A DNA stretch of 64,000 bases from Stenotrophomonas maltophilia (GTDB lineage: Bacteria > Pseudomonadota > Gammaproteobacteria > Xanthomonadales > Xanthomonadaceae), in the NCBI RefSeq assembly GCF_001676385.1, contig NZ_LYVJ01000014.1, positions 1 to 64,000 on the forward strand, written 5' to 3'. This document shows, piece by piece, positions 1-59,700 of this stretch (position 1 is its first letter; each line of letters begins with the position of its first letter). The notes beneath the pieces were generated by a model. It did no database searches, was not told the DNA's origin, and saw only the letters and a list, made by a program, of their open reading frames with translations. Both the position numbers and the translations under genes were made by a program.

Positions 1-20
1 GCCCCTGACAGTTCCTGCGG
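1..20 (-). repeat. Edge of a fourth copy of the 104-bp inverted-repeat element
   Basis: Read on the minus strand this is the CAGGAA-CTGTCAGG lead-in that precedes the left arm of the full copies at 201-304, 40722-40825 and 41057-41160. The rest of the element lies outside the window. The A/G-rich stretch at about 30-80, T/C-rich on the minus strand, resembles the tract upstream of the copy at 41057. Positions 1-392 hold no gene: only this edge, a GGGGTC palindrome, a small REP near 150-172, one complete 104-bp element and a run of ten C just past the stop of the transporter gene. Confidence 0.6.
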
Positions 21-200: not shown

Positions 201-304
201 GGCGGTGAGGGGGCCGATGGCGGGACCGTCCACGGCATGGATGCCGGGGCCGAGCCTACAGGGACGTACTTGCGGCGTGTCCCGCCATCGGCCCCCTCAC
301 CGCC
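201..304 (+). repeat. 104-bp inverted-repeat element, copy 1
   Basis: A perfect 26-bp left arm (201-226) and right arm (279-304) flank a 52-nt core (227-278). The core contains CATGGATG inside a small inner hairpin, then CGAGC and TACAGGGACGTAC, and ends in GCGT. The lead-in CAGGAAATTGTCGGA lies just upstream. The arm sequence differs from the other copies while arm and core lengths are identical. Short open reading frames across it are by-products of the palindrome. Confidence 0.85.
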
Positions 305-2193: not shown

Positions 2194-2238
2194 GGGGCGA
2201 CTCCGGAGGCGGGCGGTCTATGCTCTAATGCACGCCAA

Positions 2239-4262
<2,024 letters not shown>

Positions 4263-18514: not shown

Positions 18515-18613
18515 AAAAGGGGACGGAGGGGATTAAGTCGTATCCGGCCCATTGGTGACGCCGATGGGTTGACGAAGGGGCGCATGCGACTTAATCCCCT
18601 CCGTCCCCTTTTT
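18515..18613. repeat. GGGGAC-type long palindrome, likely bidirectional terminator
   Basis: AAAAGGGGACGGAGGGGATT (from 18515, continuing AAGTCG) is the exact reverse complement of the block ending TTTT at 18613, with a 46-base interior. On both strands the hairpin ends in a T-run. It stops four bases from the pfp stop codon. Part of its interior (GAAGGGGCG..ATGCG) is shared with the copy at 38013. Confidence 0.9.
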
Positions 18614-20574: not shown

Positions 20575-20610
20575 TCCGGCCGGCGTGCCGTCGCTGCCTC
20601 GGCCGGAACA

Positions 20611-20651
20611 ACACAGGCCTGGTCCGTGCGGACCAGGCCTGTGTCGTTTGA
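20611..20651 (+). terminator. Terminator-like hairpin after adk
   Basis: ACACAGGCCTGGTCC pairs perfectly with GGACCAGGCCTGTGT around a GTGC tetraloop, 37 bases past the adk stop. The following CGTTTG is only weakly T-rich. Confidence 0.75.
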
Positions 20652-20897
20652 TAGGCGCCAGCGGAGGGCTTGCTCAGGGCCCCCGCAGCATGAGCTCCCT
20701 TGGGGATGGCCTCTTGGGGAGTAGGACCGGTTCGGGTACTGCGGCTGGCAGGTTGAATTGTGTCCGGGTTCACAGAACATCGCTATCGGGAATTCCCCGA
20801 CAGTTGATTGGAGTTTTCTCACATCCCGTGTAGGAGTTGTCTTACCCGGCAGCGGACATTGGCCCTATACAGCCGTCATCAGTCACAATCTTCGGTC
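20652..20897 (+). other. Intergenic region before mpl
   Basis: No gene is visible. The stretch has a few G/C-rich inverted segments. A weak promoter-like pair, TTACCC (20842) and TATACA (20866) with an 18-base spacer, lies just before mpl. A small RNA cannot be excluded, but nothing specific supports one. Confidence 0.35.
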
Positions 20898-22838: not shown

Positions 22839-22930
22839 CATCCACGCATGGCGTGGATCCGCTGTAGAGCCGAGCCTATGCTCGGCTTGATGGATCCGGC
22901 GAAGCGCAGCCGAGCATCGGCTCGGCTCTA
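22839..22930. repeat. Cluster of GTAG-type (SMAG-like) repeats
   Basis: Three units follow the Lon-like gene: ATCCACGCATGGCGTGGAT (about 22840-22858), then GTAGAGCCGAGC..GCTCGGC from 22864, then its inverted partner ending GGCTCGGCTCTAC at 22930. The last two form a head-to-head pair able to fold as one long hairpin between convergent genes. Confidence 0.85.
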
Positions 22931-22957
22931 CAGTGGGTGATCGCGCACCGATACCCG

Positions 22958-30887: not shown

Positions 30888-30903
30888 CGCCGCAGCGACA
30901 TCT

Positions 30904-30973
30904 GTAGAGCCGAGCCCATGCTCGGCTGCTGTTGCCTGAAAGCGCGGTGAGCCGAGCATGGGCTCGGCTCTAC
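30904..30973. repeat. Inverted pair of GTAG-type (SMAG-like) repeats
   Basis: GTAGAGCCGAGCCCATGCTC begins the first unit and GAGCATGGGCTCGGCTCTAC ends the second. The two are exact reverse complements separated by 30 bases. The pair lies between the convergent aminotransferase (30887) and HAD (30980) stops and could form a long stem on either strand. Confidence 0.9.
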
Positions 30974-30979
30974 AGTGGT

Positions 30980-32154: not shown

Positions 32155-32220
32155 AAAAAGGGGACGGAGGGGATTAAGTCGTTTGTGCACAAACGACTTA
32201 ATCCCCTCCGTCCCCTTTTT
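32155..32220. repeat. Perfect 66-bp GGGGAC-type palindrome, bidirectional terminator
   Basis: From AAAAAGGGGACGGAGGGGAT through the central GTGCAC to ATCCCCTCCGTCCCCTTTTT the sequence is a continuous perfect palindrome. It fills the gap between the azurin stop (32153) and the hemL stop (32225), so each transcript ends in a very long hairpin plus T-run. Confidence 0.95.
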
Positions 32221-37748: not shown

Positions 37749-37937
37749 TTGCATTCTCCGCAATGTCGATGCATGCGAAACGACCTTGAACCCGGGGGCT
37801 CAAGTGGGAACGCTGGAGAACCATCGGGCTTCCCGCTACAAGGCGGACCTGCACTCCCGGCGCTGTCGCGCTCCCGGTGTCGTTCTTAAGGGACAAGGCG
37901 AATGTTTGCACATGCCGTCGAGTACCGCAGAGAACGC
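37749..37937 (-). ncRNA. ssrS: 6S RNA
   Basis: This is a small RNA of about 189 bases that binds sigma-70 RNA polymerase and mimics an open promoter. Seen on the minus strand: a closing helix of GCGTTCTCTGCGGT (from 37937) with ATTGCGGAGAATGC (ending about 37751), and the 3' landmark CTTGAGCCCCCGGGTTCAAG, which matches the CCTTGAACCAAGGGTTCAAG block of E. coli 6S RNA. A perfect -10 element, TATAAT, lies at 37944-37949, seven bases before the proposed start. The position between zapA and fau is the conserved one. The ends are accurate to a few bases only. Confidence 0.87.
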
Positions 37938-38012: not shown

Positions 38013-38090
38013 AAAAAGGGGACGGAGGGGATTAAGCCGTTTCCAGCACGGAAGGGGCGAATGCGCCTTAATTCCCTCCGTCCCCTTTTT
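38013..38090. repeat. GGGGAC-type long palindrome abutting zapA
   Basis: AAAAAGGGGACGGAGGGGATTAAG-type arm (from 38013) pairs with the imperfect arm ending CCGTCCCCTTTTT at 38090. The final T is also the first base of the zapA stop triplet (tta, 38090-38092). Its interior shares GGAAGGGGCG.ATGCG with the copy at 18515. Confidence 0.88.
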
Positions 38091-40634: not shown

Positions 40635-40721
40635 GGGGTGTTCTGCAGGGCTTGCAGCCCTGCACCCGCTGCAAGCCGAAGCAACGGCAACGGCCAAAGC
40701 AAGAGCGGCACTGCGTGGGAT

Positions 40722-40825
40722 GGCGGGGCGGTGTGGGTGGTCAGGACACGCCGTAAACCCATCCTTGGGGGCTCGATGGCGCCATCCATGGCGCCAACGG
40801 TCCTGCCCACCCACATCGCCCCACC
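40722..40825 (-). repeat. 104-bp inverted-repeat element, copy 2
   Basis: In minus orientation: left arm 40825-40800, core 40799-40748 (52 nt) and right arm 40747-40722. The arms (26 bases) have three mismatches or wobbles. The first part of the core, CGTTGGCGCCATGGATGGCG then CCATCGAGC, equals copy 3 exactly; the second half differs, but the terminal GCGT is kept. The CAGGAATCTGTCAGG lead-in is at about 40827-40841. The stretch 40635-41199 holds no gene, only this copy, copy 3 and three small palindromes. Confidence 0.88.
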
Positions 40826-40852
40826 CCTGACAGATTCCTGTGGCTGTTGGTG

Positions 40853-40978
40853 GGTGCCGACCGTTGGTCGGCACATCTGTCAGATATCGAATGAATCATC
40901 CACGCATGGCGTGGATCTACTGGCAACTGCGATTGTTGGGGCGGGCGGCTATTGGTAGGTGTCGACCTTGGTCGACAC
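40853..40978. repeat. Three short palindromes in the pepP-prolidase gap
   Basis: GTGCCGACC/GGTCGGCAC at 40853-40873, ATCCACGCATGGCGTGGAT at 40898-40916 and GTAGGTGTCGACC/GGTCGACAC at 40955-40978. They are REP-like units of the kinds found throughout the window, packed between two larger elements. Confidence 0.8.
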
Positions 40979-41056
40979 AGAGCGAGCGCAGCGAACGACC
41001 CGCTTTTGCTTTTCTTTCTTCTTTCCGTGGTTGGACGCGCGCAGGAAACTGTCAGA

Positions 41057-41160
41057 GGTGGGGCGGGTGGGCCATGCAGGGGCGTTGGCGCCATGGATGG
41101 CGCCATCGAGCTTACAGGGACGTACCTGCAGCGTCCCCTGCATGGCCCACCCGCCCCACC
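41057..41160 (+). repeat. 104-bp inverted-repeat element, copy 3
   Basis: Perfect 26-base arms (41057-41082 and 41135-41160) flank a 52-nt core (41083-41134) with an inner hairpin TGGCGCCA-TGGA-TGGCGCCA, then CGAGCTTACAGGGACGTAC and terminal GCGT. An outer perfect 12-base inverted repeat GTGGTTGGACGC (41027-41038) / GCGTCCAACCAC (41181-41192) encloses the whole, giving 166 bases in all. Confidence 0.9.
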
Positions 41161-41199
41161 AAGCGCGGCTTTTGCTCTGAGCGTCCAACCACGAGGGGC

Positions 41200-50496: not shown

Positions 50497-50592
50497 TGGC
50501 GGAAGGCAGCAGGAGTCGAACCTACCAGGGAACGATCGACGCCCCCTACTGGGTTTGAAGCCCAGCCGCATGCCCGGATGCGCATGCCTTCC
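50497..50592 (-). tRNA. selC: tRNA-Sec (anticodon UCA)
   Basis: On the minus strand the gene starts GGAAGGCA and ends TGCCTTCC-G-CCA, so CCA is encoded and the acceptor stem is the long 8-bp form. The anticodon arm CTGGGCTTCAAACCCAG carries TCA; a long variable arm (AGGGGGCG with TCGTTCCCT) and a T-arm GTAGG-TTCGACT-CCTGC follow. Same layout as E. coli SelC; the total length is 96. It lies between selB and selD on the same strand (24 bases after selB, 26 before selD) and so appears part of the sel operon. Confidence 0.97.
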
Positions 50593-56786: not shown

Positions 56787-59700
56787 CTACACCTTCTCGA
56801 CCTTGACCAGGATGCACTTCGATTCGGGCGTCTGCGAGTTGCCGTCACCGATGGCGTTGGTCAGCGTATTGGCGATGTAGCCGGGCCTGGCTGCACCGAG
56901 GAAGCCCCAGTGGATCGGAACACCCACCTGGTGCACGGTCCGGCCATCGATCTGCAGGGCCTTGATGCGTTTGGTCACCATGGCCACCGCTTCGATGTGG
57001 CCGCGCTTGGAACTGACGCGCACCCGGCTGCCGTTGTCGATGCCCAGCTCGTCGGCCAGCGCGGCGCCGATCTCGACGAACTGCTCGGGCTGGATGATGG
57101 CGTTGAGCTTGCCGTGCTTGGTCCAGAAGTGGAAATGCTCGGTCAGGCGGTAGGTAGTGGCGACATGCGGGAACTCATCCGGCGAACCGATCTGTGCCCG
57201 GTCACTGGCGAACACGCGTGCGGCCGGGTTGTTCAGCGTCAGTGCCTGGCCGGGGCTGAGCGGGTTGCTGCGCAGCGGCGTATCGAAGGGTTCGTAGTGC
57301 TCCGGGAATGGTCCCTCGGCCATGCCGGCCTTGGCGAAGAAGCGGGCGATGCCTTCCGGGTTCATGATGAACGGGCCCATGCCGCCCGCCGGGTCTTCAT
57401 CCGCCTTGAAGTCGGGCACGTCGATGTTGCCCCAGTTCTTCCCGTTCCACGCAAGCAGCGTGCGGCGCGGATCGAACGGCTTGCCGGCCACGTCGCACGA
57501 CGCGCGGTTGTACATCACGCGGCGGTTGGCCGGCCATGCCCAGGCCCAGCCCAGCGTGTTGCCGATACCGGTGGGGTCACTGTTGTCGCGCCGCGCCATC
57601 ATGTTGCCGGTCGGGCCCCAGGCGCCGACGTAGATCCAGCAGCCCGAGGCCGTGCTGCCATCATCACGCAGCTCGCCGAACGCGGCCAGCTGCTCGCCGG
57701 CCTTGCGTACCAGCCTGGTCGGATCCTTCGGATCGAACACATCGGCCAGCGCCTTGCCGTTGTACTCCATCGCCAGCTCTTCGGGCGTAGGCACTTCCGG
57801 ATTGGCGTATTTCCAGGCCAGGTCGCGTACCGGGTCCCACCAGGCGCCGCCGTCCTTCTCGTACAGCGCTTTGATGCGGTGGAACAGCTCGGACATGATC
57901 TCGATGTCGCTGCGCGCCTCGCCCGGCGGATTGGCACCTTTCCAGTGCCACTGCAGCCAGCGCGATGAATTGACCACCGCGCCGTTCTCCTCGGCGAAGG
58001 AGGTGGTCGGCAGGCGGAACACCTCGGTCTGGATCGTGCTCGGGTCGACGTCGTTCAGCGCGCCATGGTTCTGCCAGAACGCGATGGTCTCGGTTTCCAG
58101 CGGGTCCATGCTGACCATGAACTTCAGCTTGGAGAACGCACTGATCAGCTTGCCCTTGTTCGGTGCCGATGCCAGCGGGTTGAAACCCTGGCAGATGTAG
58201 CCGTGGATCTTGCCCTCGTTCATCAGCTCGTAGGCCTGCAGCATGTCGTACGGCTTGTCGAGCTTGGGCAGGTAATCGAAGCACCAGTTGTTGTCGGCGG
58301 TGGCGGCATCGCCCCACCACGATTTCATCAGGCTGACATGGAACTTCGGATAGTTCTGCCAGAACGACATCTGGTTGGGACGCAGCGGCTTCTGCGTGCG
58401 CTTGGCGATGTAGGCGCCGTAGTCCTGCTCGTCCTGCCTGGGCAATGTCAGGTAGCCGGGCAACAGGTCCGACATCAAGCCGATGTCGGTCAGGCCCTGG
58501 ATGTTGGAATGCCCGCGCAGCGCGTTCATTCCGCCGCCGGCCACGCCGATGTTGCCCAGCAACAGCTGCACCATGGTGCCGGCACGCACGTTCTGGGCAC
58601 CGATCGAGTGCTGTGTCCAGCCCAGTGCGTAGAGGATGGTCATCGCCTTGTCGCGGCCGGCGGTGGACGCGATCATCTCCCAGACCTGGCGGATGCTGTC
58701 GGCCGGCGTGCCGCAGATGCGCTCGACCATCTCCACCGTGTAGCGCGCATAGTGCTGCTTGAGCAGGTTGTAGACGCAGCGCGGGTCCTTCAGCGTCGGG
58801 TCGCTGCGCACGAAGCCATCGTCACCATAGGCGTAGTCCCAGCTGGAACGGTCGTAGCTGCGCTTTTCCTCGTTGTAGCCCGAGTACAGGCCGTCCTTGA
58901 AGGCGAATTCGTCCTTCACCAGGAACGACATGTCCGTGTAGTTCAGCACGTATTCGTGCTGGATGCGGTCCTCGGTCAACAGGTAGTTGATCAGGCCGCC
59001 CAAGAACACGATATCGGTGCCGGTGCGGATCGGCGCGTACACATCGGCCACCGCGGCCGAGCGGTTGAAGCGCGGATCGACCACGATCAGCCGGGCCTTG
59101 TTGTGTGCCTTGGCCTCGGTCACCCATTTGAACCCGCACGGGTGTGCCTCGGCGGCATTGCCACCCATGATCAGGATCAGGTCGGCATTCTTGATGTCGA
59201 CCCAGTGATTCGTCATCGCACCACGGCCTAGCGTCGGGGCAAGACCTGCCACCGTCGGGCCGTGTCAGACACGTGCCTGGTTGTCGAATGCCAGCATGCC
59301 AAGGGAGCGGACGACCTTGTGGGTCAGCACCGCGGTTTCATTGCTCGTGGCCGAGGCCGCCAGCATGCCGGTGGTCAGCCAGCGGTTGACCGTCTGCCCG
59401 GCTTCGTTCTTCTGCACGAAGTTGGCATCGCGGTCTTCCTTCATCAGCCGCGCGATGCGATCCAGTGCATCGTCCCAGCTCAGCCGCTTCCACTCGTTCG
59501 AGCCCGGCGCGCGGTACTCGGGGTAGAGCAGGCGCGACTTGCTGTGGATGATGTCGGCGAGGCCGGCACCCTTCGGGCACAGCGTGCCGCGGTTGACCGG
59601 ATGGTCCGGATCGCCTTCGATATGGAAGATGCTCGGCTCGGCGTTCCTGGCGCCATCGCCGAGGCTGTACATCAGGATGCCGCAGGCCACCGAACAGTAC

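Follow-up and report, generated by a model that had tools for sequence, protein, structure and literature searches.

Two 104-nt palindromic elements stand head to head between two convergent M24 peptidase genes of Stenotrophomonas maltophilia, raising the question of whether such elements are structured RNAs or non-autonomous mobile palindromes. The preliminary description offered both readings and knew no name for the element, whose closest name proved to be TwoAYGGAY RNA (RF01731). The window analyzed here is the whole stretch of DNA from base 1 to base 64000 of contig C14 (genome of 4.12 Mb in 51 contigs). It contains the three full copies and the edge of a fourth that had been described, at the positions given in Table 1. 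The full copies also fold much better than shuffled sequences (z of −8.6, −7.3, and −11.8 for copies 1, 2, and 3, respectively; 200 shuffles each). A hairpin scan of the window at a score of ≥20 returned seven hairpins, including copies 1 and 3, both of the 26-52-26 type (arm, core, arm). Copy 2 scored 17, under the threshold, because its arms carry mismatches. No hairpin reached a score of 20 in three Markov-resampled windows.

Table 1. Elements of the window and their parts
Feature	Position	Strand	Details
Edge of fourth copy	1..20	-	Lead-in CAGGAACTGTCAGGGG, cut by the contig end (window starts at C14 base 1)
Copy 1	201..304	+	26-bp arms, 52-nt core 227-278; R1 106.4 bits
Copy 1 loops	237-242, 260-265	+	ATGGAT, AGGGAC
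Copy 2	40722..40825	- (GGA-bearing sense)	Core 40748-40799; R1 110.2 bits, RF01731 24 bits
Copy 2 loops	40789-40784, 40766-40761	-	ATGGAT, AAGGAT
Spacer of head-to-head pair	40826..41056	.	Lead-ins of copies 2 and 3; short GTAG-type palindromes (SMAG-like, by eye)
Copy 3	41057..41160	+	Arms 41057-41082 / 41135-41160; R1 114.5 bits
Copy 3 hairpins	41083-41108, 41110-41132	+	P2, P3
Copy 3 hexaloop 1	41093..41098	+	ATGGAT, CsrA-type ANGGAY
Copy 3 hexaloop 2	41116..41121	+	AGGGAC, CsrA-type ANGGAY
Copy 3, RF01731 match	41050-41171		29.5 bits

Other features of the window include strong hairpins with long arms at 18515-18612, 22862-22933, 30902-30975, 32155-32220, and 38013-38090, all five of which fall outside the element family by the size of their loops (20 to 30 nt). 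A further palindrome (GGGGTCGGATCCGTTTTCC / GGAAAACGGATCCGACCCC) occupies positions 88-131 in the spacer before copy 1, and palindromes resembling it are found behind rapZ in relatives. Rfam gathering matches correspond to 6S RNA (37751-37936, minus strand), sX11 (20603-20751, minus strand), and a TPP riboswitch (2234-2335, plus strand). A selenocysteine locus is represented by tRNA-Sec (50501-50592) and SECIS_3 (59212-59270), both on the minus strand.

Copy number, layout, and stem covariation

Covariance model R1 was built from 68 aligned copies of this genome (alignment A1). From 86 rows, 16 were excluded by a rule on the core ends and the closing C, namely, near-canonical copies (L024:1049, L035:724, and L037:707), truncated or degenerate rows (L022, L023:763, and L059:1001), and ten other hairpins; two contig-end duplicates (L031) were also left out, and long-insert variants stand outside the alignment. 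R1 detected 106 matches in the genome at E ≤0.01, including 83 with scores of ≥78 bits. Dropping two matches that repeat others at contig ends (C6 and C13) left 81 strong copies (≥78 bits), and 94 matches of any strength remained upon removal of contig C13 and of overlapping, mostly antisense, matches.

In the insert variants (L009, L050, L033, L047, L049, L043, L044, and L040), a multi-hairpin insert of ~80 to 90 nt that recurs among them takes the place of loop 1 or 2 (by eye), with L049 carrying inserts in both loops. Contig ends fall in or within ~800 bp of elements at window position 1 and in C4, C6, C13, C15, C17, and C19, and the same element pair is found at the ends of C6 and C13.

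The exact 26-52-26 layout proposed earlier holds for the core, which is the constant, but not for the arms. A scan without sequence criteria for hairpins with loops of 20 to 90 nt, performed on 63 genome loci that had themselves been fetched as element matches, found a loop of exactly 52 nt in 61 of the 80 hairpins scoring ≥20. The arms of these 61 hairpins ranged from 21 to 31 bp, with a mode of 26 (19 hairpins). Arm sequences differ with pairing kept, as had been noticed, but they are not random, since recurring types occur in addition to many unique ones (by eye). The shared core words are present, those of copy 2 standing as the reverse complement because this copy lies on the minus strand. 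The outer 12-bp inverted repeat of copy 3 (GTGGTTGGACGC / GCGTCCAACCAC) is real but is conserved only in part in the orthologous loci printed.

Of the 2,788 cells of the full structure in the 68 copies, 96.8% are paired, versus 73.7% upon shuffling and 47.0% at most in slid controls, controls that do not fully correct for relatedness. Both sides change in 37 of the 42 pairs, and none of the five measures observed was attained in 500 shuffles. Thus, the loss of lengths and the lack of compensation in the arms that the preliminary description named as signs of chance were not borne out, and a chance origin of the layout is rejected by the covariation measures and by the resampled windows devoid of hairpins. 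The core consists of hairpin P2 (positions 0 to 25), one A, hairpin P3 (positions 27 to 49, with a 5-nt bulge), and GT. The outermost pair of P2 covaries (C-G/T-A, 41:27), and positions 3-4/21-22 of P2 form two Watson-Crick pairs in 50 of the 68 copies and a tandem G-A in 15. Each element may be pictured as a structured RNA of ~104 nt, putatively a Xanthomonadales branch of TwoAYGGAY, in which a long stem of free sequence (P1) would lead to a three-way junction with P2 and P3.

Strand asymmetry, hexaloops, and the TwoAYGGAY model

A palindrome acting only as double-stranded DNA should display G-T and A-C mismatches equally often in the arms of the GGA-bearing strand. In P1 of 116 distinct elements (75 from this genome and 41 from other fetched genomes of the genus, order, and class), G-U mismatches outnumbered A-C mismatches 54 to 16, or 43 to 16 when only context-unique mismatches were considered (p 6e-4). 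In this genome alone, the counts were 27 and 11 (p 0.014). Additional elements, Stenotrophomonas included, were retrieved with a pattern of 20 bases that does not cover the arms. Among the matches listed, the context-unique G-U:A-C ratio was 75:7 (p ~2e-15) for non-viral matches with the 52-nt core in register and 49:2 with stricter arms. This bias indicates that a structure forms in the GGA-bearing strand, most simply as RNA, and is the strongest single result for single-stranded structure. It rules out a DNA-only palindrome read symmetrically, as a double strand or cruciform, although hairpin loops of single-stranded DNA could also generate an excess of G-T over A-C. The asymmetry points to a repeat acting as a single strand, and this REP-looking repeat is probably RNA.

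Each hairpin of the core ends in a hexaloop, C[AUGGAU]G in one and C[A-N-GGA-Y]G in the other, with N free and A and GGA nearly fixed. The copies were oriented by counting A.GGA, which makes the loop count partly dependent on the orientation chosen. Loop 1 reads ANGGAT in 68 of 68 copies (ATGGAT in 66, AAGGAT in 1, and ACGGAT in 1), and loop 2 reads ANGGA in 66 and ANGGAY in 64. The N of loop 2 is the most variable loop site (G in 30 copies, T in 27, C in 7, and A in 4), and the 2 copies without ANGGA in loop 2 carry AGGAAT and AGCGGC. Outside the alignment, L059:1001 has AAGAAT in loop 1. The 116 distinct elements give a similar picture, with few shifted or altered loops. Paired hairpin loops with GGA, by which RNAs that bind CsrA/RsmA are recognized, are present, and we take the hexaloop motif to be the CsrA/RsmA site consensus. 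Sites ~20 nt apart can be bridged by a CsrA dimer. The hexaloops, separated by about this distance, are candidate CsrA/RsmA docking sites that one CsrA dimer could bridge. The csrA gene is present in this genome and in 17 of 17 RF01731-positive genomes, versus 235 of 274 genomes overall, a weak association because csrA is so common (~0.07 by chance).

The RF01731 model produced 11 matches in the genome, all of which coincide with R1 matches in place and strand, and finds only these elements. Since the best match scored 38.9 bits, under the cut-off of 43, we refer to a related branch rather than to a member recognized by Rfam. R1 recovered 7 of 12 RF01731 loci of other families at E ≤1, including 6 at E <1e-4. 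The RF01731 gathering score was reached in none of 12 other Xanthomonadales sources, and RF01731 was absent from 10 other Xanthomonadales sources at E ≤0.05, which counts against a TwoAYGGAY assignment. The AYGGAY loop of that family is found in loop 1, where N is T or C in 67 of the 68 copies; in loop 2, 34 of the 68 have A or G at N, which is wider than the Y of TwoAYGGAY. The shared profile and the tandem G-A were both found. There is good support for an element that is of the TwoAYGGAY type and works at the RNA level, and the structured RNA of the preliminary description has gained support from the covariation, the excess of G-U over A-C, and this family relation. We read the elements as a branch of TwoAYGGAY that is present in high copy number, is often paired, and displays CsrA-type loops.

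Pairing, gene context, and distribution

Pairs are frequent but not the rule. Forty-six of the 81 strong copies form 23 pairs with members <700 bp apart, 22 in the (-,+) orientation and one in the (-,-) orientation; the other 35 have no strong partner within 700 bp. Inclusion of weak matches led to 58 paired copies out of 94. An independent finder reported 20 (-,+) pairs out of 21, with core starts 236 to 361 bp apart. In the (-,-) pair (also L052), one core looks reversed within its arms; at L052:718-821, the core is seemingly inverted relative to its flanks, the lead-in being on the other side. Pair members were no more alike than random pairs (0.683 versus 0.703), and identity exceeded 0.85 in 0 of 21 pairs versus 9.8% of random pairs, a difference that is not significant. 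Among the pattern matches listed, neighbors within 1.5 kb formed 15 pairs, comprising 10 (-,+) pairs, 4 (+,-) pairs, 2 of which lie inside longer strings, and 1 (-,-) pair. As a consequence of head-to-head pairing, a transcript crossing in either direction carries one sense element near its far end.

The codon model called both neighboring genes for 44 of 54 clusters, which were convergent in 19 cases, co-directional in 20, and divergent in 5; the window's own 53 gaps comprise 8, 36, and 9, respectively. Between co-directional genes, single elements had no sense bias according to this model (5 sense and 5 antisense). This result led us to drop a sense-only rule for single elements (7 of 7) obtained with a crude GC3 rule, whose context count (15 convergent, 14 co-directional, and 0 divergent of 29) was likewise superseded. 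Many elements are located 30 to 130 bp past a stop codon. Where an element abuts the 3′ end of a gene, it often lies antisense to that gene, and of 25 loci with a GC content below 58%, 15 have a downstream antisense gene, so that the sense strand of such elements would be reached only in read-through or separate transcripts.

The site of the window pair was recovered in 30 loci of the genus, containing both elements in 14 cases, one in 6, and none in 10 (two of the 6 and two of the 10 are cut short, and in L123, one of the 14, the left arm scored weakly). In most of the ten orthologous sequences printed, flanks and spacers are largely alike but the strains differ in their arm and core types, a pattern suggestive of exchange among copies, presumably by gene conversion. 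At this site, genomes G002 and G014 carry a pair with unrelated arms and stems, and in the G002 ortholog the P2 hairpin has a stem rich in A and U (TGTCAAAAAC / GTTTTTGACA) and retains its loop. At the site behind rapZ, a recognized element occupies 7 of 30 loci, with two arm types represented, and at least one further locus carries a degenerate element (by eye). Inspection of these two orthologous loci by eye revealed neither a precise empty site nor a target duplication. The elements there give the impression of long-standing residents that changed type without moving.

R1 was run on this genome and 60 relatives and matched 32 of the 61 at E ≤0.001. In the genus sample, 28 of 37 genomes had matches, 14 of them at the scoring maximum of 65, and 9 had none. 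At E ≤1e-4, matches were found in 57 of 198 genomes and 17 of 54 genera of the family. RF01731 was detected in 17 of 274 genomes of the class, with 13 over the cut-off. The core pattern occurs in at least 118 stretches, versus ~0.5 expected by chance according to our estimate; records titled Stenotrophomonas and Xanthomonas are among those that contain it. The 80 titles shown include Shewanella, Marinobacter, Alteromonas, Idiomarina, Halomonas, Vibrio, and Pseudomonas, and those naming a genus or class presumably all belong to the Gammaproteobacteria. The 133 pattern matches listed include 4 in viral contigs and 98 with ≥18 of 22 arm pairs under the core length and shift that fitted best among several tried; among these 98 listed matches, the core is exactly 52 nt in 74 and 53 nt in 18. 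Three IMG/VR contigs with the core pattern (L295, L296, and L297) could represent host flanks, and L297 has two opposed cores 2.4 kb apart near an open reading frame resembling a phage repressor (by eye). A blastn search with one 161-base copy, which diverged copies would escape, found nothing among 50,697 phage and 72,556 plasmid records. A repeat borne by phages or plasmids is not supported by this search, but the core pattern does occur in the three IMG/VR contigs.

Interpretation and comparison with known systems

Judging from sequence, we consider it moderately probable that the elements are structured RNAs of the TwoAYGGAY branch that hold CsrA. The RNAs would be the 3′ parts of read-through transcripts, or pieces cut at the long stem, and by holding CsrA they would tune the level of the free protein or the fate of the host mRNA. 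Against this reading stand the frequent antisense position of the elements, the equal numbers of sense and antisense single elements between co-directional genes, the copies with altered or insert-bearing loops, and the absence of RF01731 from 10 other Xanthomonadales sources at E ≤0.05.

The elements might instead be non-autonomous mobile palindromes, similar to REPs/REPINs or MITEs, forming single-stranded DNA hairpins recognized by a transposase in trans, with the head-to-head pair as the mobile unit. This would fit the patchy, high-copy distribution (28 of 37 genomes in the genus and 57 of 198 in the family), the orientation common to 22 of the 23 strong pairs, the core-to-core spacing of 236 to 361 bp in 21 pairs, and the SMAG-type REPs seen by eye in spacers. 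We nonetheless regard it as unlikely, since the two loci inspected by eye gave no precise empty site or target duplication, the pair was kept in place at 14 of 30 orthologous loci while its type was swapped, and one copy had no blastn match in phage or plasmid records, diverged copies escaping this search. In addition, a search spanning 8 nt outside and 4 nt inside the element ends found a 5′ GTAG tag in 0 of 68 copies, a 5′ CGTC tag in 5, and a 3′ CTAC tag in 4, and a transposase site would not be expected to vary freely at the N of ANGGA only. The mobile palindrome proposed at the outset keeps a low probability, with the patchy, high-copy distribution speaking for it and the apparent long residence of the elements at the two orthologous loci examined speaking against it.

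Somewhat less likely again are bidirectional transcript-end structures, in which the long stem would end or protect mRNAs from both sides and the loops would be incidental. The enrichment in convergent flanking genes (19 of 44 clusters versus 8 of 53 window gaps) and the position of many elements 30 to 130 bp past a stop codon are expected in this case. However, a stem alone needs neither a 52-nt core nor two junction hairpins nor a fixed GGA, the 86 rows display no T-run directly after the elements (by eye), and 20 of the 44 clusters are co-directional and 5 divergent. The hexaloops could also be read by an RNA-binding protein other than CsrA, the case for CsrA being the sequence resemblance of the loops. 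This appears very unlikely, as the excerpts of PMC4333381 treat paired hairpin loops carrying GGA as the motif for CsrA binding.

A bold, genome-wide extension of the CsrA reading is a distributed sponge, which we put forward tentatively as a possibility. It would be composed of ~80 dispersed two-loop RNAs (~160 CsrA-type sites) located between genes, many as symmetric pairs, whose sites would be exposed by read-through either way, with concerted exchange keeping layout, not sequence, alike. The elements may form a large reservoir of regulator-binding sites.

Among known repeats, the SMAG/GTAG REPs of S. maltophilia are described in the excerpts of PMC2613905 as abundant palindromes, single or paired. 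SMAGs measure ~24 bp and have a GTAG end, whereas the elements measure 104 nt and have a conserved two-hairpin core. A classical REP or REPIN was rejected because the tag is missing in most copies and the unit is 104 nt long. Many microRNA families matched the long stem in Rfam at a loose threshold, several of them with better E values than RF01731 (0.015 and 0.27); they were dismissed as palindrome artifacts. Yersinia Ysr224 (RF02770), annotated as an sRNA of that genus unlike the elements, matches them at 26.8 to 33.7 bits (cut-off of 70), in 5 of 5 cases on the strand opposite the GGA sense (window positions 40696-40803, plus strand, and 41079-41169, minus strand). We infer that Ysr224 resembles the antisense of the TwoAYGGAY core, and its strand may be misassigned.

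CsrA/RsmA-sequestering sRNAs are produced from single or few loci and contain several GGA motifs each. The elements share GGA-loop hairpins with CsrB/C, RsmX/Y/Z, and RsmU but have two loops per unit and 81 strong units. According to the excerpts of PMC7694677, RsmU is cut from a 3′ UTR, binds RsmA, and is reported in no bacteria but Xanthomonas, and no sequenced Xanthomonas genome has a homologue of the classical sequestering sRNAs. If transcribed and bound by CsrA, the elements could be the missing counterweight in Stenotrophomonas and its relatives.

TwoAYGGAY RNAs share with the elements an outer stem and two AYGGAY-like hairpins, the tandem G-A, named as a feature of the family in the excerpts of PMC4333381, and dispersed copies; loop position 2 is any base in the elements, which is a difference. 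Members of RF01731 in other families are also (-,+) neighbors (G218 and G328, 225 to 280 bp apart in each, and L100), and genome G150 has a (+,+) neighbor pair. We found no description of TwoAYGGAY as a paired, high-copy repeat in the open-licence literature. A table in the excerpts of PMC2864571 lists TwoAYGGAY as probably RNA with "n" for cis-regulatory, Rfam types RF01731 as Cis-reg, and the excerpts of PMC11661157 call TwoAYGGAY relatively unexplored. The excerpts of PMC4333381 propose that TwoAYGGAY binds CsrA, in a framework of Clostridia. Transcription of the elements and CsrA binding would provide TwoAYGGAY with a function.
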